Assembly: GCA_030041385.1 (NCBI GenBank)
Contig: JASHNY010000248.1
Coordinates: 1 to 34,792, forward strand
From: Alphaproteobacteria bacterium
Lineage (GTDB): Bacteria > Pseudomonadota > Alphaproteobacteria > ATCC43930 > CGMCC-115725
Length of the DNA: 34,792 nucleotides
Direction: 5' to 3'
Shown: positions 4,360 through 31,305 of the stretch, piece by piece
Layout: each line of letters starts with the position of its first letter
Position numbering within the stretch: position 1 is the stretch's first letter
Made by a program: the position numbers and the translations under genes
The notes under the pieces: generated by a model
Told to the model about the DNA's origin: nothing
What the model saw: the letters and a program-made list of their open reading frames with translations, nothing else
Database searches by the model: none

Positions 4360-4581
4360 GTGGCGGAACTCAGGGTGGTTGCAGAGATCAGCGGATCGGT
4401 GTGGAAGATCCTGGTCAGACCGGGAGACAGGGTGGACGAAGAGGAACCGCTTGTCCTGCTCGAATCGATGAAGATGGAAATTCCGGTTCTGGCGCCGGAG
4501 GGCGGCACCGTCGTCGCGGTCAACGTCGTCGAGGGAACCGTCATCGGCGAGGGCGAGCTGATCGTCGTCATGCAGACGTGA
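4360..4581 (+). CDS. Stand-alone biotinyl/lipoyl attachment-domain protein (BCCP-like, 73 aa)
   Basis: A single biotinyl/lipoyl beta-barrel domain of 73 residues. The ESMKMEIP motif places the carrier lysine at residue 38, and MKM is the classical biotinylation signature rather than the lipoylation type (TDKA) seen in the neighbouring E2. Such mini-proteins serve as biotin carboxyl carrier subunits for acyl-CoA or other carboxylases. No carboxylase gene is in the window, so the partner is unknown. The GTG at 4360 was chosen because GGGAGGGGGA lies just upstream and the domain begins at once; an in-frame ATG at 4324 would add 12 residues of Pro/Gly-rich sequence. It sits where lpdV is found in Pseudomonas bkd operons, but 100 bp separate it from bkdB. 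Confidence 0.8.
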   Translation: MAELRVVAEISGSVWKILVRPGDRVDEEEPLVLLESMKMEIPVLAPEGGTVVAVNVVEGTVIGEGELIVVMQT

Positions 4582-10727: not shown

Positions 10728-10858
10728 GTGCAGCGAAACTTCCTCGGACTTTTACGGTATTGAAGCCGGCATCCTGAGGTCACGGCTTGTGGAAATCGTG
10801 GCGACCGGCACCCAGGGCAGAAAAAAGCCGCCAGCACGCGCATCCGCACTTTTCGGGA

Positions 10859-11296
10859 TCATTTTTGTGCCTGTTGCGCGAGCTGCCGGCGGAGCGATTT
10901 GATTTCCTCGAAGCGTGTCGTCACGTCGCGCAGGATGGCGGCGATCCCGGCCATGCCGCCTGCCTCGTTGTGAAAGGTGACGATCGTGAACTCGACCGAA
11001 ATCCGGGTTCCGTCCTTGCGCATGGCCGGCACGGCGAGAAGGTCGCCGCCGCCATAGCGTGACCGGCCGGTCCGCATGGTCTCGGCATAGCCGTCCCAGT
11101 GGCGTTTGCGCAGAGTTTCCGGAATGATGATGTCGAGCGATCGATCCAGCGCTTCCGCCTCGGAAAACCCGAAAATCCGCTCTGCACCGGCGTTCCAGAA
11201 ACGGATCACGCCGCTGGCGTCGGCATAGATGATCGCGTCGGGCGCGCCGCAGACCAGCTCGCGGAAAAATCGGTCCGAATTCGGCGCGTTGCTCAT
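10859..11296 (-). CDS. Stand-alone PAS-domain protein (145 aa)
   Basis: A single PAS domain and nothing else: DAIIYADASGVIRFWNAGAERIFGFSEAEALDRSLDIIIPE, then RKDGTRISVEFTIVTFHNEAGGMAGIAAILRDVT, followed by a short C-terminal helix (RFEEIKSLRRQLAQQ). No kinase, GGDEF or DNA-binding output is attached, so it may act by protein-protein contact or by binding haem, flavin or a small ligand. ATG at 11296 was preferred to an upstream GTG (11341) because it leaves 13 bp to the preceding gene instead of overlapping it by 32 bp, and AGGAAG lies before it. It is the last gene of the four-gene minus-strand operon. Confidence 0.82.
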   Translation of the reverse strand: MSNAPNSDRFFRELVCGAPDAIIYADASGVIRFWNAGAERIFGFSEAEALDRSLDIIIPETLRKRHWDGYAETMRTGRSRYGGGDLLAVPAMRKDGTRISVEFTIVTFHNEAGGMAGIAAILRDVTTRFEEIKSLRRQLAQQAQK

Positions 11297-11309
11297 GCCC
11301 CCGCTTCCT

Positions 11310-11615
11310 TCAGGCGAACCCGAAATGCGCTTTCGCCGCACCGCTCATCAGTTCCGGCGACCAGGGCGGTAGCCACGTCATATGCACCTCGACCGAGGCG
11401 ACGCCGGCAACCGACCGGGCCGCCTCCTCCGCCCCTCGCTTCAGGGCGTTGGTGGCCGGGCAACCCGGCCGGGTGGTGGTCATGCGAATGCGCACCTGGT
11501 TCCCGTCGACGCTGATGTCATACACCAGCCCGAGGTCGACGATGTTGTAGCCGAGCTCGGGGTCGATCACCATTTTCAGCGTCTCGGCAACGGCCGCGAT
11601 CAGATCGTCGCTCAT
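11310..11615 (-). CDS. MIP18/DUF59-family metal-sulfur cluster assembly protein
   Basis: A 101-residue single-domain DUF59 (MIP18, PaaD/SufT-like) protein. The signature DPELGYNIVDLGLVYDI near residue 18 and the conserved cysteine in TTTRPGCPATN (Cys52) are present, with the usual C-terminal WLPPWSPELMSGAAK. Relatives help load or repair Fe-S clusters. In this setting, next to DUF2249 and oxidase-like genes, repair of NO-damaged centres is plausible but inferred. It starts 6 bp after the DUF2249 stop. Confidence 0.9.
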   Translation of the reverse strand: MSDDLIAAVAETLKMVIDPELGYNIVDLGLVYDISVDGNQVRIRMTTTRPGCPATNALKRGAEEAARSVAGVASVEVHMTWLPPWSPELMSGAAKAHFGFA

Positions 11616-11621
11616 GCCGCC

Positions 11622-12137
11622 CTACCGCCGAATCTCGGTTTTCTGGGCCGGTCCTGGGCGCTGGATCAGATGCCGATAGCCGTCTCGTTCAAGTCGTTCG
11701 CTCTCGATCGAGATGCCGCGTGCGGCGAGTTCCCGGTACAGAAAAACCGGCTCGCGTTCGGTAAAGACTTCGAGTGCTGCGCCGGGCGCCATCGTCTCCA
11801 GTGCGGCGAGAACCCTCACCATCGGCTCCGGCGGCTCGAGCCCGCGCGTATCGAGCGTCACGGGATCGTCGAGCGCGGCCGCGGGCGACGCCGAGCCGGG
11901 TGTGCCGCGGGGCGTGAACAGGACCTCCCAGTCGCCGCCGCCGATCTCGCGCTCCTGGTGATCGAAACCCCGGCCAGCCATCACGGTGAACAGCGGCACC
12001 GGCTTGAACGTCGCCTGCAGGCACAGCGCCTGGCCCGGCTCGAGCCGGGCCACGGCCGCCATGATATCGGCAAACGGCTCGCCGCCGGCGCGAAGGGTGG
12101 GCCGGACATCGATCAAGAGTGGCGCAAGCTCGGTCAT
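11622..12137 (-). CDS. Two-domain DUF2249 protein (171 aa)
   Basis: Two tandem DUF2249 units. The first runs from IDVRPTLRAGGEPFADIMAA to about residue 80 (ALCLQATFKPVPLFTVMAGRGF, DWEVLFTPRG). The second runs from LDTRGLEPPEPMVRVLAAL to the C-terminus (ALEVFTEREPVFLYRELAARG, YRHLIQR). The ATG at 12137 begins MTELAPLLIDVRP and is 1 bp past the stop of the upstream membrane-protein gene. A longer open frame reaches 12461 but only by overlapping that gene. No catalytic residues can be assigned; a TusA-like fold is expected. With the 84-aa protein at 7833, the region encodes three DUF2249 domains. Confidence 0.85.
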   Translation of the reverse strand: MTELAPLLIDVRPTLRAGGEPFADIMAAVARLEPGQALCLQATFKPVPLFTVMAGRGFDHQEREIGGGDWEVLFTPRGTPGSASPAAALDDPVTLDTRGLEPPEPMVRVLAALETMAPGAALEVFTEREPVFLYRELAARGISIESERLERDGYRHLIQRPGPAQKTEIRR

Positions 12138-12138
12138 A

Positions 12139-13503
12139 TCAGGGGCTCCTTTTCCCGGGATAGGCGGACTGGACTGGCTGGACCGGCGCCGGCGGGTGCG
12201 CAGCAGCGCCGGCGGAACCGGCCGGCGCCACGTACCGCAAGCGCCGCACCCGCCACAGCTCGCGGACGATGAACAGGCTCGCCACCAGATGCAGAAAAAT
12301 GGCGGCGCGCCAAAGCTCGACCTGACCGAGGAAACCGCTGACGGTTCCGGCTGCGACTGCGGCGAAATACAGGACGAACCAAGGCGCGGCGCGCGCTTCC
12401 TGGACCAGATCCTGGACCCGCGGCACCGCCGTCTTGCCAAGGCTCGGCCCGTACTGTTCAAGCCAGGTCAGAAACGGCACGATCTTGTAAAGCTGCCCGA
12501 GAGCCAGGCCGGACAACCATCCGAACAGCAGCAGATAGGCCAATGGCCCGATCATCGACGGCAGGCGCCCGGTCACCTTGCCGGTGGCGAAGCCGACCAC
12601 GCAAACGCCCAGCGCAACCAGCGCCGCCGCCGCGGTCTTGCTGTTGAGCTCGAGGATCGGCCGGCGCCGCGCCCGGTATATCCGCGCCATATCGACCAGG
12701 TAAAGCACGGCCGCGACGATCAGCAGGAACAGGCCGCCCTTCCACATCGGGCCGACGATCGGCATATCGCCAAGAAACATGTCGAGCCACAGAAGCGCGA
12801 GCCCGGCGGCGGCGAGACGCAGCACCTTCACGCCCAGCCCGCTGTCGTCTTCCGGCGCCAGCATGAACATCGACAGCAAGCGATAGCTGACGCCAATCGC
12901 CGTAAGCGTGAACCAGCCGATGAGCCCGCTCGCGACGTGCAGGGTGAGATCGTTAGTCAGCCTGCCGGCCCAGGGAACGGCCTCAGGCCATGCGAAGGCG
13001 AGCGCAAAGCAGAGGCCGAGACCGATTGTGAGCAGCAGGAAGCACAGGCTGACGGCGACAAAGCGGCCGGCAAGCGCCAGCGGGCGGGCGGCGGCGAGCG
13101 CTCGCGCGATGATGACGCCCACGAGCGAGAGGCCGGCGAGCACCAGGCCGCCGCCCAGCGGCAACGCCGCCAGCCAGGCCGCCGGCAGCGTTCCGTCCAG
13201 CGCGAGAAAACCGGCGATCATACCGGACAGCCCGCAGCCGACCGCGATCAGCGAGGGAAGACCGGCGCGCTCGCCGATCTCGCCGGTTCCGGTGATCACC
13301 GGAACAAACTGGAGCAGCGCGCCGACCATCAGAAGGGTCAGCCAGCCGATCGTGATCAGATGCACGCCGACAAGCGTATGTCCGCTGATCATCGCTTCGG
13401 AGGGGTAGGTGACACCGGCGGCCATCAGCGCCTGAGCGGCAAGGAATGCCCCCAACGCGGTCGCGAAATAGGCCATCGTCCAGCGCGAGAGTCCGACAGG
13501 CAT
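12139..13503 (-). CDS. Polytopic membrane protein, NnrS / haem-copper-oxidase-like
   Basis: A 454-residue integral membrane protein with roughly 12 hydrophobic helices. Near the N-terminus are AYFATALGAFLAAQALM and SGHTLVGVHLITIGWLTLLMVGALLQFVPV; the helix-embedded histidines (GHTLVGVH) recall the haem-ligand helix of COX1-like proteins and of NnrS. Later helices carry a serine/histidine-poor hydrophobic core. Proteins of this type are annotated as COX1-like or NnrS-like and occur with DUF2249 and NO-response genes. It is first in a tight operon (1, 6 and 13 bp gaps) with DUF2249, DUF59 and PAS genes, and a perfect TTTGCG...CGCAAA palindrome lies 74 bp upstream. Function, possibly NO tolerance or haem/copper handling, is inferred. 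Confidence 0.7.
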   Translation of the reverse strand: MPVGLSRWTMAYFATALGAFLAAQALMAAGVTYPSEAMISGHTLVGVHLITIGWLTLLMVGALLQFVPVITGTGEIGERAGLPSLIAVGCGLSGMIAGFLALDGTLPAAWLAALPLGGGLVLAGLSLVGVIIARALAAARPLALAGRFVAVSLCFLLLTIGLGLCFALAFAWPEAVPWAGRLTNDLTLHVASGLIGWFTLTAIGVSYRLLSMFMLAPEDDSGLGVKVLRLAAAGLALLWLDMFLGDMPIVGPMWKGGLFLLIVAAVLYLVDMARIYRARRRPILELNSKTAAAALVALGVCVVGFATGKVTGRLPSMIGPLAYLLLFGWLSGLALGQLYKIVPFLTWLEQYGPSLGKTAVPRVQDLVQEARAAPWFVLYFAAVAAGTVSGFLGQVELWRAAIFLHLVASLFIVRELWRVRRLRYVAPAGSAGAAAHPPAPVQPVQSAYPGKRSP

Positions 13504-13576
13504 TGGCGGGGCTTCTTTCAGGGTCTCTTCAGGCCGTCATCGACCGCAAACCATAGCGGCGCCTGCCGCGCCGCTG

Positions 13577-13592
13577 TTTGCGCCCGCGCAAA
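13577..13592. promoter_or_regulatory. NnrR/FNR-type operator, TTTGCG-N4-CGCAAA
   Basis: A perfect 6-bp inverted repeat with 4-bp spacer (TTTGCGCCCGCGCAAA), centred about 81 bp before the membrane-protein start on the minus strand and 170 bp before the Crp/Fnr gene on the plus strand. The core is identical in half-sites and spacing to 10191-10204. Activation at -41.5 would put the minus-strand transcript start near 13543. Confidence 0.65.
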
Positions 13593-13753
13593 TCCGCGCG
13601 CTATGCGCAGGCCGGCGCCGGGCGGACGCGCCATGCCGCGGCACTCCCGCTTCCGGCCAGCGATCCCGACCGCGCGTCCGTGTGCCGCGGCCGGCGTCAT
13701 TGCACGGCCCGGGCCGCCCGCCCACCTTAAAGATGTATCTCAGATGGTGGTTT

Positions 13754-14509
13754 ATGATGGCTCGACCCAGAATCGAACTGCCGCGGCACGACGGGGCCGC
13801 AGGAAACGCTGTACCGGGCCGCCGTCCCGATGGTTCGGCCATCCGGCACCTCGAATTTTTCCAGGCGCTGGATGCGGTCGAACGCGACGACGTCGCCGCC
13901 AACGCGCGGCCGAAACGGATCGCCAAAGGCGAGGCGCTGTTCCGTCAAGGCGAGCCGCCGCGCGCCTTGTTCATGGTGTTGAGCGGCGGCTTCAAGGCAA
14001 CGCAGGTGACCCCGGACGGGCACCAGGTGGTGATGCGGGTGGCTGGGCCGGGCGGGCTCGCCGGTCATGTGTCGGTTTTCACCGAAAAGCCCTATCCGGC
14101 GACGCCGGTCGCGGTGACCGACAGTCTCGTGCTGGCATGGGAGGCGCAGACCTTCACCGCGCTGATGGCGCGGTATCCGGCGCTGTCGCTCGCGGTCGTG
14201 CGCGATATGGGGCGAAATATCGAGGAGGCGCACGCGCGGCTGCGGGAATCGTCCACCGAACGGGTCGAGCGGCGCATCGCCCACGGCATTTTGCGACTTG
14301 CCCGGCAGTCCGGGCGCCGCATCGAAAACGGTGTCGAAATAACCTTTCCGATCACTCGCCAGGACATCGGCCTGATGACCGGCGCCACCCTGCATACCGT
14401 CAGCCGCACCCTGAGCGCATGGGAACAGGAAGGCATCGTCGATGGCGGGCGGCAGCACCTCGTGCTCCGCGATCCCCACGCCCTGCTGCGCATCGCCGAC
14501 GAGCCGTAA
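13754..14509 (+). CDS. Crp/Fnr-family regulator, NnrR-like
   Basis: About 251 residues: an N-terminal cyclic-nucleotide-type effector domain (RIAKGEALFRQGEPPRALFMVLSGGF, then HVSVFTEKPYPATPVAV), a long dimer helix and a C-terminal winged helix (FPITRQDIGLMTGATLHTVSRTLSAWEQEGIVDGG). Cysteine residues for an FNR-type Fe-S cluster are absent, and the cAMP phosphate-binding pattern is not complete, so the signal is probably NO or redox through another cofactor. The recognition helix reads HTVSR, where FNR has E-T-x-S-R; from memory this form is typical of alphaproteobacterial NnrR. Start codons at 13754 and 13757 are equally good. It is divergent from the membrane-protein operon and a matching palindrome lies between. 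Confidence 0.85.
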   Translation: MMARPRIELPRHDGAAGNAVPGRRPDGSAIRHLEFFQALDAVERDDVAANARPKRIAKGEALFRQGEPPRALFMVLSGGFKATQVTPDGHQVVMRVAGPGGLAGHVSVFTEKPYPATPVAVTDSLVLAWEAQTFTALMARYPALSLAVVRDMGRNIEEAHARLRESSTERVERRIAHGILRLARQSGRRIENGVEITFPITRQDIGLMTGATLHTVSRTLSAWEQEGIVDGGRQHLVLRDPHALLRIADEP

Positions 14510-15099
14510 AACCGGCGCGCCCGCAGAACGTGTCCACAGCACGCGAACGCGTGGTCAATTCCCTTCCGCCGCGACAGGGTCAGAAACGGATTATAACGGG
14601 GAGACAAGGTCCGAGCGGATGCTCGCCGCGTTTTCGGCCTTGGCTGCCGGATACCGTTTTGCCGAGCTGCACCATTTCGGGGCCGGAGGCGCCCGAGCAC
14701 CACGGTATCGCCGATCGAAGCGCCGGTATCGCCGGGAAATAAACAGATCAAGGCACATTCACTGGGTGTCGGCTTTCAGACCGCGCTTCATTGCGGCCCT
14801 GGCTTTATTGCCAGGGAGTCCGGCTGCCTGGGCACAAAGAGAGAAACGACTTTCGGCGAGAGACTCAGGAAAGACGATTCATCATCCCCGCCCACTCGCC
14901 GCAAACAAGGAACTTTCGTCGTGCGCTTGACAGCGGAAACCCGTCCGCGCATTTTGTTCCTGTGTACAGAACGGCTTTCTCCTATGCGGAATGACCCCCG
15001 GGCATCAGGCCGCCATGTGCCCCGGAATCGGCGCCGCGGACCGGAAATGCCGGTTGGCCGGCCCGGGTCGAGCGCCGCGATTGCGGTGGGCGCGTCGCG
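14510..15099. other. Intergenic region between the regulator and module A
   Basis: About 590 bp with no convincing gene. Open frames here are short, Arg-rich and without recognisable domains or well-placed ribosome-binding sites. The only notable element is TTGACA at 14928-14933 within TTGACAGCGG, a 10-mer repeated exactly at the strong promoter at 16493. A poor -10 (CATTTT, 16 bp on) makes it only a possible promoter for the aminotransferase gene 170 bp downstream. Confidence 0.5.
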
Positions 15100-16443
15100 A
15101 TGACGCTGCGCAACGACACCGGCGTTTTTCACCGCAACATCGCCCGCGCCTATCAGACGGCGGTAGCAGGCGATGGCGCCGTCGTCGTCGATGCCAACGG
15201 CCGCCGCTATCTCGACGGGGCCGGCGGGGTGTTCGTCGCGATATTGGGCCACAGCCCTGCCGAAGTGGCGGAGGCCGTTGCCGACCAGGCCGGCAAATTG
15301 AATTTCGCCTATACCGGCGATTTCACCACCGAGCCGGCCGAACGCTTGGCGCGCAAGCTGGAAGCGATCGCGCCCTCTGGTTTGAGCAAATTGTGGCTGA
15401 CGACGTCCGGGTCCACCGCCAACGAGGCTGCCCTCAAGCTGGCGCGGCAGTACCACCTGCTGCGCGGAAACCCGGAAAAGACCAAGGTCGTCTCGCGCTG
15501 GCACAGCTATCACGGCAGTACGCTCGGGGCGCTGTCGATGACCGGGTCGATGCCGCGGCGGCGCCCTTACGAGCCTTACCTGGCCAATTTTCCGCATGTC
15601 AGCCCGCCCTACTGCTATCGCTGCCCGCTGGCGCTGACCTATCCCGCGTGCGGCGCCGCGTGCGTCGAGGAGATCGAGCACGCCATCCGGTTGCACGGAT
15701 CGCGATACATCTCGGCCCTGATCATCGAGCCGGTCGCGGGCGGGCCGCTCGGCGCCCTGAATACGCCGCCCGAATACCTGCGGCGGGCGCGCGAGATCTG
15801 CGACCGGCACGACATTCTGCTGATTCTGGACGAGGTCGTTTCGGGGCTGGGGCGCACCGGCACCTGGTTCGCCTGCGAAGAGAGCGGCGTTGTCCCCGAC
15901 ATCATTACGCTCGCCAAAGGGCTGGGCGGCGGCTTTGTGCCGATCGGCGCGGTTATGGTTCACCAGCGGATCTATGATGCATTCGAGGCGTCGGGCACCT
16001 CCTTCGTCCACGGCGAATCGTTCACCGGGCATGTGTTGCTGGCGACGGCGGGCTGTGCCGTCATCGACTACATCGAGGATCGCCGGCTGTTGCAGCAGGT
16101 ACGCGTGCTTGGGCCGCGGCTCGGCGCCCGCCTGGGCGCTCTCGCCGCTCATCCGCTCGTCGGCGAGGTGCGCGGTCGCGGCCTGCTTTACGGCCTCGAA
16201 CTGGTCGCGGACAAGCGCAGCAGAAAACCCTTCGACCGCGCGGCGCAAATCTCGGAGCAGGTGGTCGAAGCGGCGGCGCGGCACGACGTGCTGCTGCTCG
16301 CGGGCAACGGCGGCGCGGACGGGATAAACGGCGATACCGTCGTGGCCGCGCCGCCCTACGTCATCACCGAGCCGCAGATCGATCAGCTCGCCGACGCGCT
16401 GGCCACCGCCCTGCAGGAAGTGGCGGCGCGGGTCGGCATGTGA
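15100..16443 (+). CDS. Class III PLP aminotransferase (omega-aminotransferase type), module A
   Basis: A 447-residue fold-type I, class III aminotransferase. The active-site Lys273 lies in ITLAKGLGGGFVPIGAV, and the cofactor Asp in LLILDEVVSGLGRTG. The phosphate-binding TTSGSTANEAALKLAR, the SYHGST motif and the late FTGHVLLATAGCAV segment are all present. These enzymes move the amino group of omega-amino acids, diamines or amines to pyruvate or 2-oxoglutarate. The sequence resembles the large group annotated as aspartate-aminotransferase-family or adenosylmethionine-8-amino-7-oxononanoate-like, and no biotin genes are near. A cysteine-rich stretch (CYRCPLALTYPACGAAC, about 170-187) is seen in some members. 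It stands before the operator-controlled promoter of the hyuA gene, so it may be a separate transcript. Confidence 0.9.
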   Translation: MTLRNDTGVFHRNIARAYQTAVAGDGAVVVDANGRRYLDGAGGVFVAILGHSPAEVAEAVADQAGKLNFAYTGDFTTEPAERLARKLEAIAPSGLSKLWLTTSGSTANEAALKLARQYHLLRGNPEKTKVVSRWHSYHGSTLGALSMTGSMPRRRPYEPYLANFPHVSPPYCYRCPLALTYPACGAACVEEIEHAIRLHGSRYISALIIEPVAGGPLGALNTPPEYLRRAREICDRHDILLILDEVVSGLGRTGTWFACEESGVVPDIITLAKGLGGGFVPIGAVMVHQRIYDAFEASGTSFVHGESFTGHVLLATAGCAVIDYIEDRRLLQQVRVLGPRLGARLGALAAHPLVGEVRGRGLLYGLELVADKRSRKPFDRAAQISEQVVEAAARHDVLLLAGNGGADGINGDTVVAAPPYVITEPQIDQLADALATALQEVAARVGM

Positions 16444-16492
16444 GCGGCGACCGGGCAACCGGCCGCAAGCTTCGCAAGGCGCAGATGCGGGA

Positions 16493-16522
16493 TTGACAGC
16501 GGGCGCGGTCGAGCGGTCTAAT
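16493..16522 (+). promoter_or_regulatory. Strong sigma-70-type promoter for the module A operon
   Basis: TTGACA (16493-16498, six of six) and TCTAAT (16517-16522, five of six) are separated by 18 bp, and predict a transcript start near 16529. It lies 85-115 bp upstream of hyuA-like ATG 16607. The predicted start site falls in the middle of the 18-bp palindrome at 16520-16537. Confidence 0.7.
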
Positions 16523-16537
16523 TGTAACGTTACAATT
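16520..16537. promoter_or_regulatory. LacI-family-type operator (perfect 18-bp palindrome)
   Basis: AATTGTAACGTTACAATT is a perfect palindrome with the central CG and TGTAA/TTACA arms typical of LacI/GalR operators. It covers the end of the -10 box and the predicted +1, the classical position for repression. A LacI-family gene ends the same operon (24476-25543). I saw no second copy in the window. Its AT-rich composition stands out from the GC-rich surroundings. Confidence 0.75.
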
Positions 16538-16606
16538 TTGCCGGCCCTTGGGGGGATCGCGTCTTGGCTTCGACCGCACCGCTTCGAACGATTGACGGGT
16601 GACGCG

Positions 16607-18667
16607 ATGACGTGGCGGCTTGGGGTCGATACCGGCGGCACTTTCACCGACGTCATTGCCTTGGAAGACGACACGGGCGAATGCCGGGTGACGAAATTGT
16701 GGTCCGACGGCGACGATATCGCCGGGATGATCGACGCGGCGATCGCCGCGTTGGGGATCGCACCGGCCAGGGTCGCCTCGATCACCTACGGCACCACCAA
16801 GATCACCAATGCCATTGTCGAAAACAAGCTGGCCTGCGTCGCCTTCATCGCGACGCACGGGTTCAAGGACATTCTGCGGATCGCCCGCCAGAAGCGGGAT
16901 TTTCTGTACAATCTGACGGCGCCCCACCGCGCCCCGCCGCCGGTGCTGGAGCGGAATTGCTTTGAGGTCGACGAGCGCTGCAGCCACGCCGGCACGATCG
17001 TCAAAGCGGTCGACGAGGCGGCGGTTGCAGCGCTGGTGCACGAGATCTCGCCCGAATGCGAGGTTGCGGCGATTTCATTCCTGCACGCCTATGCCAACGG
17101 GGCGAACGAGAAAATAGTCGCCGCAATCCTCGGTCGCCGGTTCAGCCACATCTCGATGTCGCATGAGGTATCGCCGGAAGCGCGGGAATACGAGCGCAGC
17201 ATCACCACCGTGCTGAATGCCGCGATGCTGCCGCTGATCCGAGGCTTGGTGGCCTCGCTCGAGCGGATGTCCGTCCCGACGAGCCGTCTGTGGTTTTTTC
17301 ACTCCGCCGGCGGCCTGATCTCGCCGGAACTGGCCGCACGACGCCCGCTGGCGCTCGCCATGTCCGGGCCGGCGGCGGGTGCGCTGGCGGCGGCTACCGT
17401 GGCCCGGGATCTGGGAATTTCTCACGCGGTCGGCGTCGACATGGGCGGAACGACCACCGATTGCAGTCTGATCGTGGCGGGGCAGGCGGCGCTCGCCGCC
17501 GAGATACGGATCGGCTCGGTGCCGATCCGCCAGCCGACGATCGCGGTCCAGAGCATCGGCGCCGGCGGCGGCTCGGTGGTGGGATATTCCCACGGCCGCT
17601 TGACCGTCGGACCGGAGAGCATGGGGGCGAGGCCCGGGCCGGCCTGCTATCTGCGCGGCGGGACCACCCCCACCCTTACCGACGCCGCCGCAGTGCTCGG
17701 CTTTTTCGGCGAGGCGGCAGATTTGACGCGGCCGGTCGCGGTCGATATCGCCGCGGCGCGGCAGGCCTTTGCCGACCTGGCCGAGGCGCTGCGCACTCCG
17801 GTCGAGGCGGTGGCCCTCGGAACCATCAAACTCGCCAGCTCCTCGGCGTCCCGGGCGATCAAGACCGTCACGATGAGTGGCGGGGTCGATGCGCGTTCCT
17901 GCGTCCTGATCGCCTTCGGCGGCGCCGGGCCGATGTTTGCCGCCTTCATCGCGCAGGAAATCGGTTTGCGCGACATCATCGTGCCCGACCGGTCGAGCGG
18001 GCTTTCGGCGGTCGGCTGCCTCGCCGCGGACCCGCTGATGACGCGGCAGTGGACGGTTCGCCTCGGCATGGAAGCGGCCACTTCTGATGCAATGGCGCAG
18101 ATCGCCGGCGAATGCCTCAGCTCGCTGCGCTGGGATTTCGACCTGATCGGCGCCGGCGCCGCCCCGGCCGAAGAGAGTTTCGTCGGCTTGTTGCGCTATC
18201 CCGGACAAAGCTACGAGATCGAGGTGCCGATCGAGCTGCCGTTTTCGTCGGACCGGGTGACGGCCGATTTTCAGCGGTTGCACGATGCGGCATACGGGTT
18301 CACCAGCTCGGACCCGTGGGAGCTCGTCGCCCTTCGCATCAGCATCAAGGCGCGCTCGCCGGGGTTCGCAGCGGCAGCAAAGTCCATTGCCGCATGCGGC
18401 GCCGAACTGCCGCCGACGCGGGCCTGCTTCGACGGCAGCAACTGGGCCGAGACGAAACAGTACCGGCGGGAGCGGCTGAGCGAAGACGCGATCGTCGTCG
18501 GTCCTGCGATCATCCTCGACGAGACATCGACCATCGTCGTACCGCCGGAATTCACCGCGGTCGCGCAGGGCCCGCATTTGCGGCTGCGCCGGCTACCGGC
18601 GGAGAGCGAGCCGGCTGAGATGGCGACGCGCGAACGGAGGCTGGAGCATGTTGCCGCCGGCGAATGA
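16607..18667 (+). CDS. Hydantoinase/oxoprolinase subunit A family protein (HyuA-like), module A
   Basis: A 686-residue protein at the normal length of the ATP-using subunit of the HyuAB/oxoprolinase/caprolactamase group. Both ASKHA phosphate motifs are intact: GVDTGGTFTD at the N-terminus (residues 6-15) and GVDMGGTTTDCSLI in the middle, followed by SIGAGGGSVVGY, PGPACY and AFGGAGPMFA. The family activates a cyclic amide, imide or urea by ATP phosphorylation for hydrolysis with the B subunit. ATG 16607 was chosen; a longer open frame begins at 16493, but that lies inside the promoter and operator. The gene overlaps the B subunit by 20 bp. The substrate cannot be assigned; the neighbouring aminotransferases suggest that the product is an amino acid. 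Confidence 0.9.
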   Translation: MTWRLGVDTGGTFTDVIALEDDTGECRVTKLWSDGDDIAGMIDAAIAALGIAPARVASITYGTTKITNAIVENKLACVAFIATHGFKDILRIARQKRDFLYNLTAPHRAPPPVLERNCFEVDERCSHAGTIVKAVDEAAVAALVHEISPECEVAAISFLHAYANGANEKIVAAILGRRFSHISMSHEVSPEAREYERSITTVLNAAMLPLIRGLVASLERMSVPTSRLWFFHSAGGLISPELAARRPLALAMSGPAAGALAAATVARDLGISHAVGVDMGGTTTDCSLIVAGQAALAAEIRIGSVPIRQPTIAVQSIGAGGGSVVGYSHGRLTVGPESMGARPGPACYLRGGTTPTLTDAAAVLGFFGEAADLTRPVAVDIAAARQAFADLAEALRTPVEAVALGTIKLASSSASRAIKTVTMSGGVDARSCVLIAFGGAGPMFAAFIAQEIGLRDIIVPDRSSGLSAVGCLAADPLMTRQWTVRLGMEAATSDAMAQIAGECLSSLRWDFDLIGAGAAPAEESFVGLLRYPGQSYEIEVPIELPFSSDRVTADFQRLHDAAYGFTSSDPWELVALRISIKARSPGFAAAAKSIAACGAELPPTRACFDGSNWAETKQYRRERLSEDAIVVGPAIILDETSTIVVPPEFTAVAQGPHLRLRRLPAESEPAEMATRERRLEHVAAGE

Positions 18668-20225
18668 CGTCTTCCTGACCGAGGTCATCCGCAACGGCCT
18701 CGCCTCGGTCGCGGAGGAGATGACGCTGACCGTGCAGCGCTCGGCGCGCTCGCCGGCGTTGCGCGAAGCCGGGGATCTGTCGTCGGCCATCACCGACGGC
18801 GACGGCAATTTGATTGCCCAGGGTCGAGACCTGCCGATCCATCTCGGCGTGATGGCATCCGCGGTCAAGGCGCTGATCGGCCGGGTCGGGAAGGCCTCGT
18901 TGCTGCCCGGCGATGTCTGGATCGTCAACCTGCCGCAGGCCAGCGGCAACCACCTGCCGGACGTCAAGGTTATGCGGCCGGTCTTTTGCGGCGGCGAAGT
19001 CGCGGCCTTTGCCATCTCGCTGGCGCATTGGGCCGATATCGGCGGGGGATCGCCCGGAAGCTACAACATCGCGGCGACCGATTTGTGGCAGGAAGGGCTG
19101 CAAATCCCGCCGATTAGGATCATGCGGCAGGACACGATCGTTGCGGATGTCCTCTCGCTGATCATCGCCAACGTGCGGGGAGCGGAGGAACGCCAGGGCG
19201 ACCTGTTCGCCCAGATTGCCGCGGTCCGCACCGGCGAGCGACGGATTATCGAGATCATCGACCGGTTCGGCGCCGCGAATTTCGGCGCGGCGATGCGCGA
19301 CATGCTCGACCTGTCCGAGCGGCAGATTCGCAGCGTGATCGAGGCCATTCCCGACGGCACCTATAGCGGCGAGGATTATCTCGACGGAACCGCCGAGACC
19401 GGGCCGGTGCGCATCGCCGTCGACATCACCATCAACGGCGGTGAGGCGGTTTTCGACTTTTCCCGCTCCGACAACGCGCTCGCTGCACCGGTCAACACCA
19501 CCCCCAGCGTGGTCGCCGCCGGCGTCGATTATTTCCTCAAGGCGATTGCCGGCGAACGCCTTTATCCCACTGGCGCCGCGCTGCGCCCGGTCAGGATCGT
19601 CACGCGCGCCGGGTCGGTCCTTGATCCGGCCTCTTCCGAGCCCGTAGTGGCGGGAAACCACGAGACCTCGAACCGCGTCGTCGACGCGATCATGAACGCG
19701 ATGAGCCCGGCCATCGCCGAGCAGCTTTGCGCCGGCGGCTGCGGCTCCGCCGGGCTGACGATTTTCAGCGGCCGCGGCCCGCGCGGCAATTGGTGGACCT
19801 TTTACGAAACCCATGGCGGCGGCAGCGGCGCCACCGCGGAGCGCCCGGGCAACTCCGCCACGCGAATTCATCTCGGCAATATGATGAACACACCGGCCGA
19901 GTTCATCGAGGCCGAATACCCGATCGAGGTCGTGCGCTCCGCGGTCCGCGGCGAATCCGGCGGGGCCGGCCGAAACCGGGGCGGCGACGGATTGATACGC
20001 GAATACCGGGTATTGGCGGACGAGGTGCGCTTCACGGCGACCTTCGAGCGGCGGCTGACGGCGCCTCGCGGCCTTGCCGGCGGCGAGGCGGGCCTGCCGT
20101 TTCGCATCAGCCTGGTGCGCGACGGCGCGTGCACCGAACTGCCGAGCCTGTGGCACGGCTCGCTCAAGCGCGACGACGTGATCCTGGTCGAGAGCGCTGG
20201 CGGCGGCGGCTATGGAGCAGCCTAG
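18648..20225 (+). CDS. Hydantoinase subunit B family protein (HyuB-like), module A, divergent core
   Basis: A 525-residue HyuB-type subunit, the hydrolytic partner of the upstream HyuA-like protein, whose gene it overlaps by 20 bp; GGAGG lies before its start. Family landmarks are DLSSAITDGDGNLIAQ, the IPIHLGVM-type segment, GNHLPDVKVMRPVF (His102), ADIGGGSPGSYN, WQEGLQIPPIRI, and GRGPRGNWWTFYETHGGG near the C-terminal third. Two usually constant stretches differ: NLPQ at 94-97 where NDPY is normal, and LAHWADIGG at 126-133 where RAHHADIGG is normal. It is also shorter than the module B paralogue (525 against 585 aa). The frame is fully open, so this looks like specialisation rather than decay. 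Confidence 0.88.
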   Translation: MLPPANDVFLTEVIRNGLASVAEEMTLTVQRSARSPALREAGDLSSAITDGDGNLIAQGRDLPIHLGVMASAVKALIGRVGKASLLPGDVWIVNLPQASGNHLPDVKVMRPVFCGGEVAAFAISLAHWADIGGGSPGSYNIAATDLWQEGLQIPPIRIMRQDTIVADVLSLIIANVRGAEERQGDLFAQIAAVRTGERRIIEIIDRFGAANFGAAMRDMLDLSERQIRSVIEAIPDGTYSGEDYLDGTAETGPVRIAVDITINGGEAVFDFSRSDNALAAPVNTTPSVVAAGVDYFLKAIAGERLYPTGAALRPVRIVTRAGSVLDPASSEPVVAGNHETSNRVVDAIMNAMSPAIAEQLCAGGCGSAGLTIFSGRGPRGNWWTFYETHGGGSGATAERPGNSATRIHLGNMMNTPAEFIEAEYPIEVVRSAVRGESGGAGRNRGGDGLIREYRVLADEVRFTATFERRLTAPRGLAGGEAGLPFRISLVRDGACTELPSLWHGSLKRDDVILVESAGGGGYGAA

Positions 20226-21599
20226 ATGAACGACACATCGTTGCGATCCGATCCCGTCGCCGAACTGCGTCGCAACTGGCGCCTGCAGCATCGCGACGGC
20301 AGCGGCGCCGACCTTGCCGGGGCGCCGTCACCGACGGTGCGGCAGGATGCCGATGCGATCCTGCGCCAGGCGGGCACCAACCCGCCGCTGCTGGCGATCC
20401 GCGCCGCTTCCGGGCCGTTTCTGGTGAGCGTCGCCAACCAGGTCTTGCTCGATCTCCACGGCAACAATTGCCACCATATCGGCTATTCGCATCCCGGCCT
20501 CACCGCGGCGCTGTCGCAGCAAATGCGCGAGATGCCGTTCGTGCCGCGCGGCCTGACCAACCGCGAGGTTGTGGAAGCCGCCGAAAAGCTGCAAGCCGCC
20601 TGGCCCTACGGCCCCGCGGTGGTCGCCTTCGTGCCGGGCGGGAGCGCCGCGGTCGAATTGGCGATCATGCTGTGCCGGGCTCATACCGGGCGCTACAAGC
20701 TGGTCTCGTTTTACGGCGCCTATCACGGCCGCAGCGCCGGCGCGCTGAGCCTCGGCGGCCGGGTGCGCGACCGGTCGCCGCGCCTCGGCCCGTTATTGCC
20801 CGGCGCGCTCCACGTACGGCCGTTCTATCCGCTTCCGGGCGAGGGCGCCTTCGACGCGGAAGCCGCCGCCCGCCGGTCGCTGGAAGATCTTGCCTGCTGT
20901 TTCGAGCAGGAAGGCGACGTCGCCGCGCTGTTCGCCGAGCCGATCCGCAACGGGCCGTTCGTGCCCCCGGCCTGGTACTGGCCCGAAGCCCGAGCGCTGT
21001 GCTCGCGTTACGGGGTGCTGCTGGTTTGCGACGAAATCCCGACCGGCCTTGGCAAGACGGGCAGGCTGTTCGCCACCGAACACTTCGATGTCAGGCCCGA
21101 TATCACCCTGGTCGGCAAAGCCCTCGGCGGGAGCATCATCCCGGTGGCGGCGGTGATCGCCGCAGCCGCGCTAAACTCGACCGCCGACCTCAACCTCGGA
21201 TACTTCACCTACGAACGCAGCCCGATGATGGCGAAGGCCGCCACCGTGGTGCTCGAGATCATCGCGGCCGAGGGCCTGGTGGCGCGCGCTGCCGAACTGG
21301 GCCGGGTGGCGCTGGACAGATTGCGGGCCGCCGCGGCGGTGCGACCGGCGCTTGCGGAGATTCGCGGCGCGGGCCTGATGCTCGGTGCCCGGGTCTGCGA
21401 CCCGGCGGGCGGCAACCACGACGAATTGGCCCGCCGCATTGTGCGCGAATGCCTGTGTCGCGGGCTGCTGCTGCAATCGCCGATGGGCGCCCGGTTGATG
21501 CTGTCCTTTCCCCTGCGGATCGATCAGGACCTCGTCGAGGAAGCCATCGATGTCTTCGCCGCGGCGGTGGATGCGGCCGCCGCGGCAGCCGACGAATAG
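20226..21599 (+). CDS. Class III PLP aminotransferase / GSA-aminomutase-like enzyme, module A
   Basis: A 457-residue second class III PLP enzyme. Lys298 in LVGKALGGSIIPVAAV is the Schiff-base lysine, with the Asp in LLVCDEIPTGLGKTG. The phosphate-binding FVPGGSAAVELAI, YGAYHGRSAGALSL and FTYERSPMMAKAA segments follow in order. Details such as the N-terminal DLHGNNCHHIGYSHP are closer to dialkylglycine- and glutamate-semialdehyde-type members than to the first aminotransferase at 15100, so the two probably do different steps or take different amines. The start codon abuts the HyuB stop codon (TAG-ATG), with GGAG upstream, indicating coupling. The exact reaction is not assignable. Confidence 0.87.
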   Translation: MNDTSLRSDPVAELRRNWRLQHRDGSGADLAGAPSPTVRQDADAILRQAGTNPPLLAIRAASGPFLVSVANQVLLDLHGNNCHHIGYSHPGLTAALSQQMREMPFVPRGLTNREVVEAAEKLQAAWPYGPAVVAFVPGGSAAVELAIMLCRAHTGRYKLVSFYGAYHGRSAGALSLGGRVRDRSPRLGPLLPGALHVRPFYPLPGEGAFDAEAAARRSLEDLACCFEQEGDVAALFAEPIRNGPFVPPAWYWPEARALCSRYGVLLVCDEIPTGLGKTGRLFATEHFDVRPDITLVGKALGGSIIPVAAVIAAAALNSTADLNLGYFTYERSPMMAKAATVVLEIIAAEGLVARAAELGRVALDRLRAAAAVRPALAEIRGAGLMLGARVCDPAGGNHDELARRIVRECLCRGLLLQSPMGARLMLSFPLRIDQDLVEEAIDVFAAAVDAAAAAADE

Positions 21600-21637
21600 G
21601 TGCAAGCAGCAAGCAGACCAGTGAACCGGGAAGGCAA

Positions 21638-22483
21638 ATGATCGGATACCGCGAAGCGACGGATATTCGGGTAAAAAGCGCAGGCGACGCGCCGGACCGG
21701 ACCCGGCTGTCGATCAAGGTCGACCGGGTCCGGCACGAATATATCTCCCAGAACGGGGAGCGCGTCGTGGCCCTCGACGACGTTTCGATCGATGTTCCCA
21801 ACGGTCAGTTCGTCGCCATCGTCGGCCCGAGCGGGTGCGGCAAGACCAGCATCCTCAACATGCTCGCGGGGCTGATCGTGCCGACGCGCGGCGCCGTTTC
21901 GATAGACGGGGAGATCGTCACCGGCACCAGCCGCGCCGTCGGCTACATGTTCGCGCGCGACGGGATGCTGCCCTGGCGCACGGCCCAGGCCAATGTCGCC
22001 TTTGGCCTCGAGGTCAGAGGCGCGTCCAAGGCGGAACGGCTGGCGCAGGCCGACGCACTGCTCGAACGGGTCGGATTGAAAGGGTTCGAACGGGCCTTTC
22101 GCTCGCAATTGTCGCACGGCATGCGCCAGCGCGTCGCCCTCGCCCGTACGATGGCGATCGATCCCAAGGTGTTTCTTCTCGACGAACCGTTTGGTGCGCT
22201 CGATGCGCAAACCCGGATCGTCCTCCAGGAGGAATTCGTCCGCCTGTGGGAAAACACCGGAAAAACCGTGCTCCTGGTGACCCACGACATTTCCGAGGCG
22301 GTCGCGATGGCCGACCGCGTCATCGTGCTCAGCCCGCGACCGGGCCGGATCAAATCGGACATCGCCATCGATCTGCCGCGGCCGCGCGACATCGAAAGCG
22401 TCAGGTTCGATGAAAAATTCGCCCGGCTGGCCCGCCGCATCTGGCGGGACATCGGCGTCCGCGGTGGAGGAGACATCGCATGA
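21638..22483 (+). CDS. ABC transporter ATP-binding protein, NitT/TauT family, module A
   Basis: A 281-residue importer ATPase. Walker A is GPSGCGKTS (63-71), Walker B VFLLDEP (178-184), with D-loop GALDA and the H-loop histidine in LLVTHDISEA. The signature is LSHGMRQR (158-165), with His in place of the usual second Gly. The Q-loop reads YMFARDGMLPWRT, so Ala106 stands where the metal-contacting Gln normally is (VFQ); the module B paralogue has the same change. It begins 38 bp after the aminotransferase, with GGAAGG as ribosome-binding site, and overlaps the permease gene by 4 bp (ATGA). Together with the next two genes it forms a complete importer for a small anionic or polar N-compound. 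Confidence 0.93.
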   Translation: MIGYREATDIRVKSAGDAPDRTRLSIKVDRVRHEYISQNGERVVALDDVSIDVPNGQFVAIVGPSGCGKTSILNMLAGLIVPTRGAVSIDGEIVTGTSRAVGYMFARDGMLPWRTAQANVAFGLEVRGASKAERLAQADALLERVGLKGFERAFRSQLSHGMRQRVALARTMAIDPKVFLLDEPFGALDAQTRIVLQEEFVRLWENTGKTVLLVTHDISEAVAMADRVIVLSPRPGRIKSDIAIDLPRPRDIESVRFDEKFARLARRIWRDIGVRGGGDIA

Positions 22484-23322
22484 CCCAATTCCGGCTGGTC
22501 GTGGCCGACCGGCGAAGCAGGTTCCCCGTACCGTCCTTCGGGCTGCGTGTCCTGTTCGACCCGGACAATCTCTTCACGATTTGGGCATGGCGGCTCGCGC
22601 TCGCCGCGCTGGTCATCGGGGGTTGGCAGGCGGCGGCGGCGCTGCGACTGGTGGACCCGATGTTCCTCGCCTCGCCGGTGGCGGTCTGCGGCTTCCTGTT
22701 CGACTACGTCGTGTCGGGAAAGATCTGGGTCAACAGCCTCGTGACGCTCGAGGAAACCGTTCTCGGTTTCGCCTTGGGCGCCGGCCTGGGAATATTGGCC
22801 GGCCTCGTCATCGGCGGATCGAAATTCCTCGAGCGGGTGCTGACTCCATTTCTGACGATCTTCAATTCTCTGCCGCGAGTGGCGCTGGCGCCGATGTTCA
22901 TCATCTGGTTCGGCATCGGCGCATTATCGAAAGTCGTGCTCGCCTTCAGCCTGGTGTTCTTCATCGTCCTGATCAGTACGGAAGCGGGGGTTCGCTCGAT
23001 CGACCCGGACCTGACCATGATGGCGAAGGTGATGGGCGCCACCGACCGTCAGCGCTTTCTTAAGGTCGTGCTGCACGGCGCGGTCCCGTCGATCTTCGCC
23101 GGCCTCCGGCTCGGTGCCATCTATTCGCTGCTCGGCGTGGTTGTCGGCGAAATGATCGCCGCCAAATGGGGCCTGGGTCAGCAGGTGATGGAGTATTCGT
23201 ACAATTACAAACCGGCCGGCGTCTTCGGCGTGCTCGCGATCCTGGCCCTGATCGCGATCTGCCTGAACGAGTTGACGACGCGGATCGAGCGCCATCTGGG
23301 CCGCTGGAAAACCGAGGACTGA
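22480..23322 (+). CDS. ABC transporter permease, NitT/TauT family, module A
   Basis: A 280-residue BPD-type inner-membrane permease with six predicted helices. The coupling-helix EAA loop is visible in EAGVRSIDPDLTMMAKVMGATDRQRFLKVVLHGAVPSIFAGLRLG. The conserved FNSLPRVALAPMFIIWFGIG stretch is typical of SsuC/TauC/NrtB-like permeases. It overlaps the ATPase gene by 4 bp and precedes the binding-protein gene. It most likely works as a homodimer. The N-terminus has a cytoplasmic polar stretch of about 35 residues before the first helix. Confidence 0.93.
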   Translation: MTQFRLVVADRRSRFPVPSFGLRVLFDPDNLFTIWAWRLALAALVIGGWQAAAALRLVDPMFLASPVAVCGFLFDYVVSGKIWVNSLVTLEETVLGFALGAGLGILAGLVIGGSKFLERVLTPFLTIFNSLPRVALAPMFIIWFGIGALSKVVLAFSLVFFIVLISTEAGVRSIDPDLTMMAKVMGATDRQRFLKVVLHGAVPSIFAGLRLGAIYSLLGVVVGEMIAAKWGLGQQVMEYSYNYKPAGVFGVLAILALIAICLNELTTRIERHLGRWKTED

Positions 23323-23379
23323 CAACAAGCCGTCGGGCGCGGCGACGCGCGCCGCATAACTGCAGGGAGGGGAGACAGG

Positions 23380-24420
23380 ATGATGAGGGTTTCAAAGCGG
23401 ACCGTGATGGCCGCCGCGTGCGGGCTTGCCCTGGCGCTGATCGCTGGCGCCGGGCCGGCGCGAGCGCAAGGGCAAACGCCCCTGCCGATCAAAATCGCGG
23501 CATTCAAGGGATCGCTGATCAGCTTCACCGCCGAGGTCGCGTTGAAGAAGGGCTTTTTCAAGGCGCACGGCCTCGATCCCACCTTCGTCTATTTCTCAAG
23601 CTGCCCGGACATCTTCAATGCCATGCTGAGCGGCGGGGTCGAGGCGGCGCCGTGCCCGTTGTCACTGGTCATGGCCGACAACGCGAAGGGGTTTCACCTG
23701 AAGATCGTGAACAACAATATTGCCGCGCAGGAATACACCCTCATCGCCCGCAAGGGATTGTCGCGGCCGCATGCCCACGACCCGTATCCGAAAAACATTC
23801 TCGACCTTAAGGGCAAGGTCGTCGGCGTCACCGTCCGCGGCTCCGACGTCGAGAACCTGGTGCGGTTTTTCCTCAAGCGCGCCGGGCTGGACCCGGATTC
23901 GGACGTGACCTGGCTTTCAGTGGGCGGGCCGCCGACCGCCATCGCCGCCTTCAAGGGCGGCCGCGTCGACTATCTGCCGGCGTGGGAGCCCGAGCAGACC
24001 GTTCTCGTCGATATTGACAAGGCCGCCGACGTCATCCTCGATACCCGTAACGGCGAGGGCAGCCCGCTGTTTCAGAATTACATCTCGAACATGACCGAGG
24101 CGCAGCAATCGGATCTCGCCAAGTCGCCGGAGAAATTCGCCCGGCTGGCCGCGGCCTGGGCGGATGCGATCGCCTATATGAAGAACCCCGCGCATTTCGA
24201 CGAGCTGGTCGAGATCTTCGCGTCGAACAGCGGCCTCGGAAAGCCGACGATCGAGGCCCTGCTGCATAACAATCTGCGCTATTTCAGCAGCACGATAAAC
24301 TGCCGGGCGCTGCAGAACGTCGCCAAGTTCGAGATCGACGTCGGCGACATCACCCGGGACCAAGTCCCCACGTGCAAGGGTCTGGTGTGGTCGGGATCGT
24401 ACAAATACCTCACCCAATAG
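23380..24420 (+). CDS. ABC transporter substrate-binding protein, NitT/TauT family, module A
   Basis: A 346-residue periplasmic binding protein of the NMT1/SsuA-like fold. A Sec signal peptide (KR near the N-terminus, AAACGLALALIAGAG core) ends at about PARA-QGQ (residue 29). The mature part has IKIAAFKGSLISF, the second-lobe GKVVGVTVRGSDVENLVRFF and VGGPPTAIAAFKGGRVDYLPAWEP, typical for this family. GGGAGGGGAG precedes tandem ATG codons at 23380 and 23383. The ligand cannot be deduced; neither nitrate, taurine nor thiamine-precursor genes are nearby, so the HyuAB substrate is the best guess. It is 57 bp after the permease gene. Confidence 0.92.
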   Translation: MMRVSKRTVMAAACGLALALIAGAGPARAQGQTPLPIKIAAFKGSLISFTAEVALKKGFFKAHGLDPTFVYFSSCPDIFNAMLSGGVEAAPCPLSLVMADNAKGFHLKIVNNNIAAQEYTLIARKGLSRPHAHDPYPKNILDLKGKVVGVTVRGSDVENLVRFFLKRAGLDPDSDVTWLSVGGPPTAIAAFKGGRVDYLPAWEPEQTVLVDIDKAADVILDTRNGEGSPLFQNYISNMTEAQQSDLAKSPEKFARLAAAWADAIAYMKNPAHFDELVEIFASNSGLGKPTIEALLHNNLRYFSSTINCRALQNVAKFEIDVGDITRDQVPTCKGLVWSGSYKYLTQ

Positions 24421-24475
24421 CCCGCCGGCCCGGCCTGCCGCCCGCGCCGAGCGCCGCTTGCGGCGGAGCGGGGCG

Positions 24476-25543
24476 ATGACCCGATCGTCCCGCCCGCCGC
24501 GGCCGCGGACCAACGGGCGCGTGTCCCTGGCAGATGTGGCGTCGGCCGCGAACGTGTCGATCATGACCGTATCGAACGTGGTGCGCGGGCGCGTCGACCT
24601 GGTAAAGCCGGGAACACGCGAACGGGTGCAGGCGGCGATCAAGGCGCTGAAGTACCGGCCGCAGACTTACGGACGCGCCTTGCGCACCTCCAAAACCAAC
24701 GTGATCGGCCTGTTGATCGTCACCCTCGACGCAGAATTTCTCAGCTCCCCGTGGACCAGCCGGATGGTGGCCGGGATGAGCAATTATTTGAACAAAAACG
24801 ATTATGCGCTGCTGGTGCACGGCCAGACCCCGCTCAAGCTGGAGGAGGCCCTGCTGGTGCGATTGTCGAACACCGACGGGCTGTGCGTGATGCTGTCGGG
24901 GTCGAGCGAGGTGCGGCAGGATCTGCTTCACCGCGTCACCCAGCTGGGGGTTCCGGTCATCGCCTTGCAGGAGCATCTCGACCCGCAGCAATTTGCCGAC
25001 CTCGCCATCGTTCGCCAAGACGATTACGGCGGAGGGACGCAGGTGGCGCGCCACCTCGTGCAGCAGGGCGCGCGGCGGCTTGCGTTTCTCGAACTGGCAC
25101 TGTCCTTCCCGGCCATGTCGCAGCGCTTCGACGGAATCAAGTCGCAGCTCGATGCGACGGGCGGCGGCTATGTTCACAAGATCGAGTGCCGCAGCGAGTT
25201 GACCGCCGAGGTCATCGCCGTCACCGGACAATACCTTTCCGCCAATCCCTTGCCGGATGCGTTCATCGCCGCCAACGAGCGACTGGCGCTCGGCCTGCTG
25301 GCGGCCTTGAGGGAGCGCGGGATCTCGGCCCCGGGCGACGTGTTGGTCGCCTCGTTCAATGCCTTTGACCTGTGGACCTACACCCTCAACCACCTGCCGA
25401 CGATCGATTTCCCCGCCTATGCGCTGGGCGCGTGCGCCGGGCGGCGGATGATCGAACGGCTGGAGCACGGCGCCTTTCGCGAGCGCATCGATGTCCTGCC
25501 GGCGGCGCTGTTGACGCCGATGTCGCGCGCCGCGCCTCAATAG
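24476..25543 (+). CDS. LacI-family transcriptional regulator, module A
   Basis: A 355-residue LacI/GalR regulator. The N-terminal helix-turn-helix is SLADVASAANVSIMTVSNVV, with the hinge segment KYRPQTYGRALRTSKT and a periplasmic-binding-protein-type effector domain from NVIGLLIVTLDAE onward (ARRLAFLELAL, DAFIAANERLALGLLAAL, PTIDFPAYALGACAGRRMIE). The recognition helix reads TVSN where TVSR is common. ATG 24476 has GGAGCGGGG in front; a TTG six codons earlier is less likely. It follows the binding-protein gene by 55 bp and is probably co-transcribed, giving autoregulation through the operator at 16520. Its 3' end overlaps the convergent decarboxylase gene by 7 bp. Confidence 0.9.
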   Translation: MTRSSRPPRPRTNGRVSLADVASAANVSIMTVSNVVRGRVDLVKPGTRERVQAAIKALKYRPQTYGRALRTSKTNVIGLLIVTLDAEFLSSPWTSRMVAGMSNYLNKNDYALLVHGQTPLKLEEALLVRLSNTDGLCVMLSGSSEVRQDLLHRVTQLGVPVIALQEHLDPQQFADLAIVRQDDYGGGTQVARHLVQQGARRLAFLELALSFPAMSQRFDGIKSQLDATGGGYVHKIECRSELTAEVIAVTGQYLSANPLPDAFIAANERLALGLLAALRERGISAPGDVLVASFNAFDLWTYTLNHLPTIDFPAYALGACAGRRMIERLEHGAFRERIDVLPAALLTPMSRAAPQ

Positions 25544-26772: not shown

Positions 26773-26818
26773 GCTCTGGCCTCCTCGTCGCCGCGCGCCG
26801 CGGTCCGTTGTGGCGTCA

Positions 26819-28428: not shown

Positions 28429-28436
28429 GTCGGCCC

Positions 28437-29519: not shown

Positions 29520-29542
29520 TTTTGTCTCCTAGGTGCACCAAG

Positions 29543-31300: not shown

Positions 31301-31305
31301 CGCCG

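Follow-up and report, generated by a model that had tools for sequence, protein, structure and literature searches.

The LacI repressor of Escherichia coli engages a promoter palindrome as a dimer, through its helix-turn-helix and hinge elements, until an inducer releases it. Its operator lacO1, centred at approximately +11, is imperfect and odd-spaced, and lacI is transcribed from a separate promoter. Across the family, Ravcheev et al. (2014, PMC4052901) describe in their main text operators that are even palindromes of 16-22 bp with a CG centre, occurring as tandem sites before some operons and lying 30-140 bp before the start codon in more than 75% of cases. The same text presents autoregulation for 72% of the LacI regulators studied and control of carbohydrate metabolism for 176 of the 182 groups with assigned pathways, and the word "hydantoin" is absent from it. 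Among enzyme systems, the Pseudomonas caprolactamase and OplBA clusters combine an ATP-dependent, ring-opening enzyme of the HyuA/HyuB type with a class-III omega-aminotransferase (PMC6061476, PMC8453981), and in P. putida the lactam operon is accompanied by OplR, a regulator of the AraC type (PMC11683335). Within the open-licence literature, no account of a LacI regulator controlling a hydantoinase or oxoprolinase operon came to light, and no paper that was by title about a LacI regulator when searching for TGTAACGTTACA and the core forms of the motif described below. The core may already be listed in motif databases such as RegPrecise.

Palindrome and promoter-like element upstream of hyuA

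We analyzed an alphaproteobacterial stretch of 34,792 nucleotides (the window), whose hydantoinase-type operon and upstream region are summarized in Table 1. Inspection of the sequence before hyuA reveals TTGACA-N18-TCTAAT at 16493-16522 running into a perfect 18-bp palindrome, AATTGTAACGTTACAATT, at 16520-16537, just as a sequence-only reading of this DNA had described. The inverted repeat ends at 18 bp, with T16519 and T16538 unpaired. It sits in the 163-bp gap (16444-16606) between the end of the first aminotransferase and the likely hyuA ATG, 69 bp from that ATG; this distance, the even length and the CG centre are those of a LacI-type operator (PMC4052901).

Table 1. Coordinates of the predicted operator, promoter-like hexamers and genes in the window.
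Feature	Position	Strand	Basis
First class-III aminotransferase; precedes the operator-controlled unit and is not part of it	15100-16443	+	Pfam PF00202
-35-like hexamer TTGACA	16493-16498	+	Sequence; TTGAC also upstream of most aligned operator rows
Weak -10-like hexamer TCTAAT, 18-nt spacer, overlapped by operator	16517-16522	+	Sequence; missed by consensus scan
Predicted operator: AATTGTAACGTTACAATT, a perfect 18-bp palindrome with CG at its centre; transcription predicted to start at ~16529	16520-16537		Sequence and core comparison
hyuA, hydantoinase/oxoprolinase subunit A, likely ATG 16607	16607-18667	+	Pfam PF01968, PF05378
hyuB, hydantoinase/oxoprolinase subunit B	18648-20225	+	Pfam PF02538
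Second class-III aminotransferase	20226-21599	+	Pfam PF00202; 46% identity to the aminotransferase of the G378 operon
ABC transporter ATPase	21638-22483	+	Pfam PF00005
ABC transporter permease	22480-23322	+	Pfam PF00528
NMT1/SsuA-like substrate-binding protein	23380-24420	+	Pfam PF09084, PF13379; SsuA_fam score under cut-off
LacI-family repressor encoded at the end of the operon; predicted binder of 16520-16537	24476-25543	+	Pfam PF00356, PF13377, PF00532

Elsewhere in the window the palindrome has no match with three mismatches or fewer, and 100 shuffles gave none. Its 14-bp centre has one exact copy in its own genome (4.39 Mb, a 264-contig assembly), where the sole other place at two mismatches or fewer, C97:3754, falls within an integrase-like ORF. 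The window holds four perfect palindromes of at least 18 bp (12031, 13286, 16520 and 16734) versus a mean of 0.66 in 200 shuffles, so that palindrome length is weak evidence when taken alone. The other three are at 12031-12052 (22 bp), 13286-13305 (20 bp) and 16734-16751 (18 bp).

The hexamers and spacing of the proposed promoter hold up on re-examination; its strength does not, with TCTAAT lacking an A at position 2 and the spacing being 18, and the element is weaker than had been implied. A consensus scan of 14500-26500 returned no sigma-70-type site under a rule that demands an A at position 2 of the -10 hexamer, which TCTAAT fails. The 10-mer TTGACAGCGG occurs at 14927-14936, before the first aminotransferase, and at 16493-16502, before hyuA (two matches versus 0.08 expected). 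The sequence suggests that these two promoters are related and that only the one at hyuA carries an operator. Read-through from the first aminotransferase into hyuA may also take place.

The seven operon genes are co-directional, with gaps of at most 57 bp and overlaps of up to 20 bp. Because the gene that follows lacI, a PLP decarboxylase (ORF 25537-26772, minus strand), is convergent, lacI closes the unit; the Pfam domains and the gene order thus bear out the earlier description of a LacI-family gene at the end of the same operon. For hyuA, the Pfam scan used a longer ORF starting at 16493. The nearest solved structures for HyuA and HyuB are N-methylhydantoinase 7hk5 and then 6yra, the P. 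jessenii caprolactamase, and against the NCBIfam CapA and CapB models the two proteins score 311.9 and 245.9 bits, respectively, where the cut-off is 1000 for each.

A second hydantoinase-type cluster occupies 25540-34178 of the window on the minus strand, convergent with the LacI operon. It comprises an IclR-family regulator, HyuA (with an uncertain ORF start), HyuB, an NMT1 binding protein, an ABC ATPase and permease, and the PLP decarboxylase, and holds no strong LacI operator core. On the other side of the operon, four ORFs tried at 10800-14900 gave no Pfam match.

The LacI-family regulator and its distribution

The protein encoded at 24476-25543 belongs to the LacI/GalR family, with scores of 50.3 bits for PF00356 (cut-off 27), 71.2 for PF13377 (26.5) and 63.1 for PF00532 (22.2). 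Its combination of a LacI helix-turn-helix with a periplasmic-binding-protein-like ligand domain is typical. It scores under the cut-off in all 18 NCBIfam families listed for named LacI regulators (RbsR, GntR, PurR, CcpA and others), the best being NF047341 at 141.7 bits versus a cut-off of 382.

In LacI-family proteins, a leucine of the hinge inserts into the CG step at the operator centre. The corresponding leucine here (GRALRTSK) aligns with a leucine of CcpA and is kept in 13 of 13 aligned proteins. The M and N of the recognition helix are likewise kept in all 11 aligned members of the group (MTVSN or MSVSN), and the same positions are A and L in the Rhizobium outgroup protein and S and N in that from Microvirga. 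The aspartate of the CcpA GFDN motif aligns with an asparagine (SFNA), a weak hint that the ligand may have changed.

The closest full-length homologue among the candidates scored (43%) comes from a genome of a different family of the class, G378. In a phylogenetic tree the two regulators are sisters with a support of 0.934, and rooting with two outgroup proteins places this pair as the first to split from the rest, with the regulator of a further genome, G405 (35%), branching next. Regulators standing on enolase/IlvD-Edd or amidohydrolase operons cluster together. The tree is small, with long branches and an uncertain root.

Homologues occur in at least 4 of 384 other genomes of the class at 1e-40, with up to five candidates per genome scored. 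A separate contig scan gave just a C-terminal fragment (69%) where a contig begins (L004), a locus that lacks the head of the operon. The regulator looks patchily distributed, since no homologue was detected in seven genus mates (E up to 1e-20), in the 42 remaining genomes of the order (1e-40) or in three others from the order of G405 (1e-40); a search that started from the G378 protein likewise detected none in the 24 remaining members of the G378 family (1e-45).

The predicted operator core at related loci

The G378 operon runs dctP-hyuA-hyuB-dctQ-dctM-lacI-aminotransferase on one strand, with identities to the window proteins of 45% for hyuA, 55% for hyuB and 46% for the aminotransferase. 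A TRAP importer (L009 15830-16888 and 10337-12122) takes the place of the ABC importer (window 21638-24420) in this operon, in which related enzymes, the regulator and the operator core are kept.

Two tandem sites, TTTTAACGTTAAAA and TTGTATCGTTAAAA, lie directly before G378 dctP with their centres 20 bp apart. The window 14-mer, a query built from the window alone and independent of the G378 sites, finds three places at two mismatches or fewer in this 3.8-Mb genome, two of which are the tandem pair. A backward-read control pattern gave 10 matches versus 3 for the pattern itself; that is to say, the evidence from G378 is the location of the matches, and their number is unremarkable. Within the 314-bp stretch before dctP, which extends to the contig end, one such match arose in 27 of 20,000 shuffles and two arose in none. 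A degenerate pattern derived from the window and G378 sites together was rejected as circular evidence: at zero mismatches it returns just those sites in G378 and G000, and at one mismatch the backward-read control outscores it in G378 hit count.

In G405, lacI diverges from hyuA-hyuB and TGTATCGTTAAACA lies between them. This site differs from the second G378 site by two mismatches, a result equalled in 22 of 20,000 shuffles, and from the window site by four, which is unremarkable (1,515 of 20,000 shuffles as good).

To describe the shared element, a 12-bp core model was built from the window site and the two G378 sites, with the core length picked after the sites were known. On its source sequences, the model finds one site scoring at least 18 in the window and one in G378, the second G378 site scoring 17.2. 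The next best score in the window is 8.0 at 9877. The sequence-only reading had placed the first aminotransferase outside operator control, and we agree: the gene precedes the operator and has no core site nearby.

The model was then applied to ten test loci carrying a relative of the regulator, whole or in part (L004, L010, L011, L012, L015, L016, L017, L028, L029 and L030, four of them from one genus). Exactly one site scoring at least 18 was present in eight of the ten; the two that lack one, L004 and L017, are both approximately 3.1 kb. Two additional sequences were scanned, gave no site and were left uncounted, namely L002 (the near match in the own genome) and L020 (a short segment of the G452 locus that L030 covers as well). 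Compared with shuffled sequence, the best site exceeded the maximum of 200 shuffles in seven of eight loci, the exception being L017, a 3.1-kb contig. No site reached 18 in two 50-kb control stretches of Mesorhizobium and Chelatococcus plasmids (best 11.7) or beside two more distant LacI genes of 29% and 24% identity (best 12.0). The outgroups are two of three weaker plasmid matches, the third (H6, Limosilactobacillus) having been left out, and querying plasmids with the regulators of G378 and G405 brought no further close relative into the group.

Conservation of the palindrome before related operons had been proposed as one check on the operator reading. It holds for the core, as seen in the G378 pair and the eight further loci, and does not hold for the exact 14-mer, of which there are no copies among 385 class genomes and none in 38 other genomes of the family. 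Similarly, the full 18-bp model beats shuffles in just two of eight loci, L011 (3/200) and L016 (5/200). When mismatches to the window core are counted directly, the operon-head site is the best in five of nine loci, tied best in two, and not the best in L012 and L015. Matches at two mismatches also occur in control L036 and outgroup locus L038, and one at a single mismatch (L015 18820) lies within an annotated Gfo/Idh/MocA-family gene.

In 11 of the 12 rows of aligned operators, 19-240 bp separate the site from the gene start that follows it, taken for some genes as the earliest codon at which the ORF could begin; the remaining row, L010, has no start assigned, and its site falls within a mechanically called ORF. 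TTGAC is found no more than 45 bp upstream in nine of the 12 rows, the window included and with two rows sharing one G378 copy, and in several relatives the core is directly downstream of this element. In Chelatococcus (L016), the site at 4427 heads an operon with lacI as its eighth gene. In Mesorhizobium (L015), a site at 11805 with a score of 16.9 lies in the divergent gap between an aminotransferase gene and lacI, and the higher-scoring site at 16935 precedes another operon. The Chelatococcus (4427, 4509) and Mesorhizobium (11805, 16935) plasmid loci each carry a second, weaker copy of the core, which may represent a tandem or distant operator. The core, approximately TDTAWCGWTAMA in either orientation, is usable for finding targets of this regulator group.

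A proposed autoregulatory circuit and its relation to known systems

The palindrome is very probably the operator of the LacI protein encoded by the same operon, a reading supported by its CG centre and by the occurrence of the core together with the regulator group. Three other readings were weighed against it. The palindrome might serve a different regulator, either a LacI paralogue or a member of another family, with the local LacI protein acting elsewhere. LacI-family specificities do overlap, and the window arms, TGTAA/TTACA, differ at two symmetric positions from the TTTAA/TTAAA of most relatives. However, the core tracks the regulator group and no strong site stands beside the two other LacI genes; the own genome has only one good non-coding site; and a search for a second operator elsewhere in the window or near and before lacI found no candidate on which the protein could act instead. 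We therefore regard a different regulator as unlikely.

As RNA, the same sequence could form a terminator or attenuator hairpin behind the first aminotransferase, with a 7-bp stem, a 4-base loop and a 3' arm running into UUUUG. That stem contains one G-C pair, though, and the 61-nt fold has a z of -0.73, with 43 of 200 shuffles as good; the element is absent from a terminator scan, and the same CG-centred core precedes operons that lack such a context. With a fold no better than shuffles and nothing in the scan, we rejected this reading as highly improbable. A palindrome arising by chance and having no function would fit the general excess of such repeats in the window, yet when the gap 16444-16606 was shuffled 20,000 times with dinucleotides preserved, a perfect palindrome of at least 18 bp arose in only 42 cases (0.2%), and this one coincides both with a promoter-like element and with the core seen before related operons, leaving coincidence an extremely remote explanation.

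Returning to the palindrome as the operator of its own operon's LacI protein, we place the probability of the complete account, which joins operator, promoter occlusion, autoregulation and small-molecule release, at about 0.88. A LacI dimer would bind the palindrome via two helix-turn-helix units, with the hinge leucines probably inserting at the central CG. Occlusion of RNA polymerase by the bound repressor is the likely and most economical mode of action, because the site overlaps the predicted -10 hexamer and start. Repression would be autoregulatory since lacI is in the same unit, such that the repressor would limit its own synthesis; the position of lacI thus favours, at the level of sequence, the autoregulation suggested earlier. 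Induction we infer from the LacI family membership together with the catabolic and import gene content, where a small molecule of the pathway, probably an imported amide- or lactam-like substrate or an early product, would release the repressor. With lacI downstream of its own predicted operator and hardly any matching site elsewhere in the genome, the arrangement has the features of a local regulon.

The position of a LacI regulator on an operon for a hydantoinase, an aminotransferase and an NMT1-type importer suggests that its effector is not a sugar. The exchange of importers in G378, TRAP for ABC, points to the common enzyme step as the thing sensed. Other members of the group stand on sugar-acid-type operons (enolase, IlvD/Edd dehydratase) with the operator core in common. 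It is a tentative proposal, which we hold somewhat short of even odds, that the regulators of the window and G378, possibly joined by the G405 protein, sense a lactam-, hydantoin- or omega-amino-acid-like effector as opposed to a sugar, and so differ from those members in ligand and target pathway. Were the effector a lactam or hydantoin, it would represent a rare non-carbohydrate ligand class for the LacI family and make the protein a candidate sensor. A palindrome read by eye has in this way become a testable pair of regulator and operator.

The mechanism itself is ordinary; to find a LacI regulator attached to a hydantoinase operon is mildly unusual. The even 18-bp CG palindrome, its position, the self-targeting and the single or tandem sites resemble the LacI local regulons described in the main text of PMC4052901. 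In contrast to the groups presented there, which are mostly carbohydrate-related, the window regulator stands on a hydantoinase/aminotransferase/NMT1-importer operon. Compared with E. coli lacO1, the window site is perfect, even and centred at approximately the predicted +1, and the repressor gene is itself part of the operon. The pairing of a HyuA/HyuB-type enzyme with a class-III aminotransferase recalls the Pseudomonas caprolactamase and OplBA clusters, whereas the window HyuA and HyuB score far under the CapA and CapB cut-offs, and the AraC-type OplR of the P. putida lactam operon (PMC11683335) has its counterpart here in a regulator of the LacI type.
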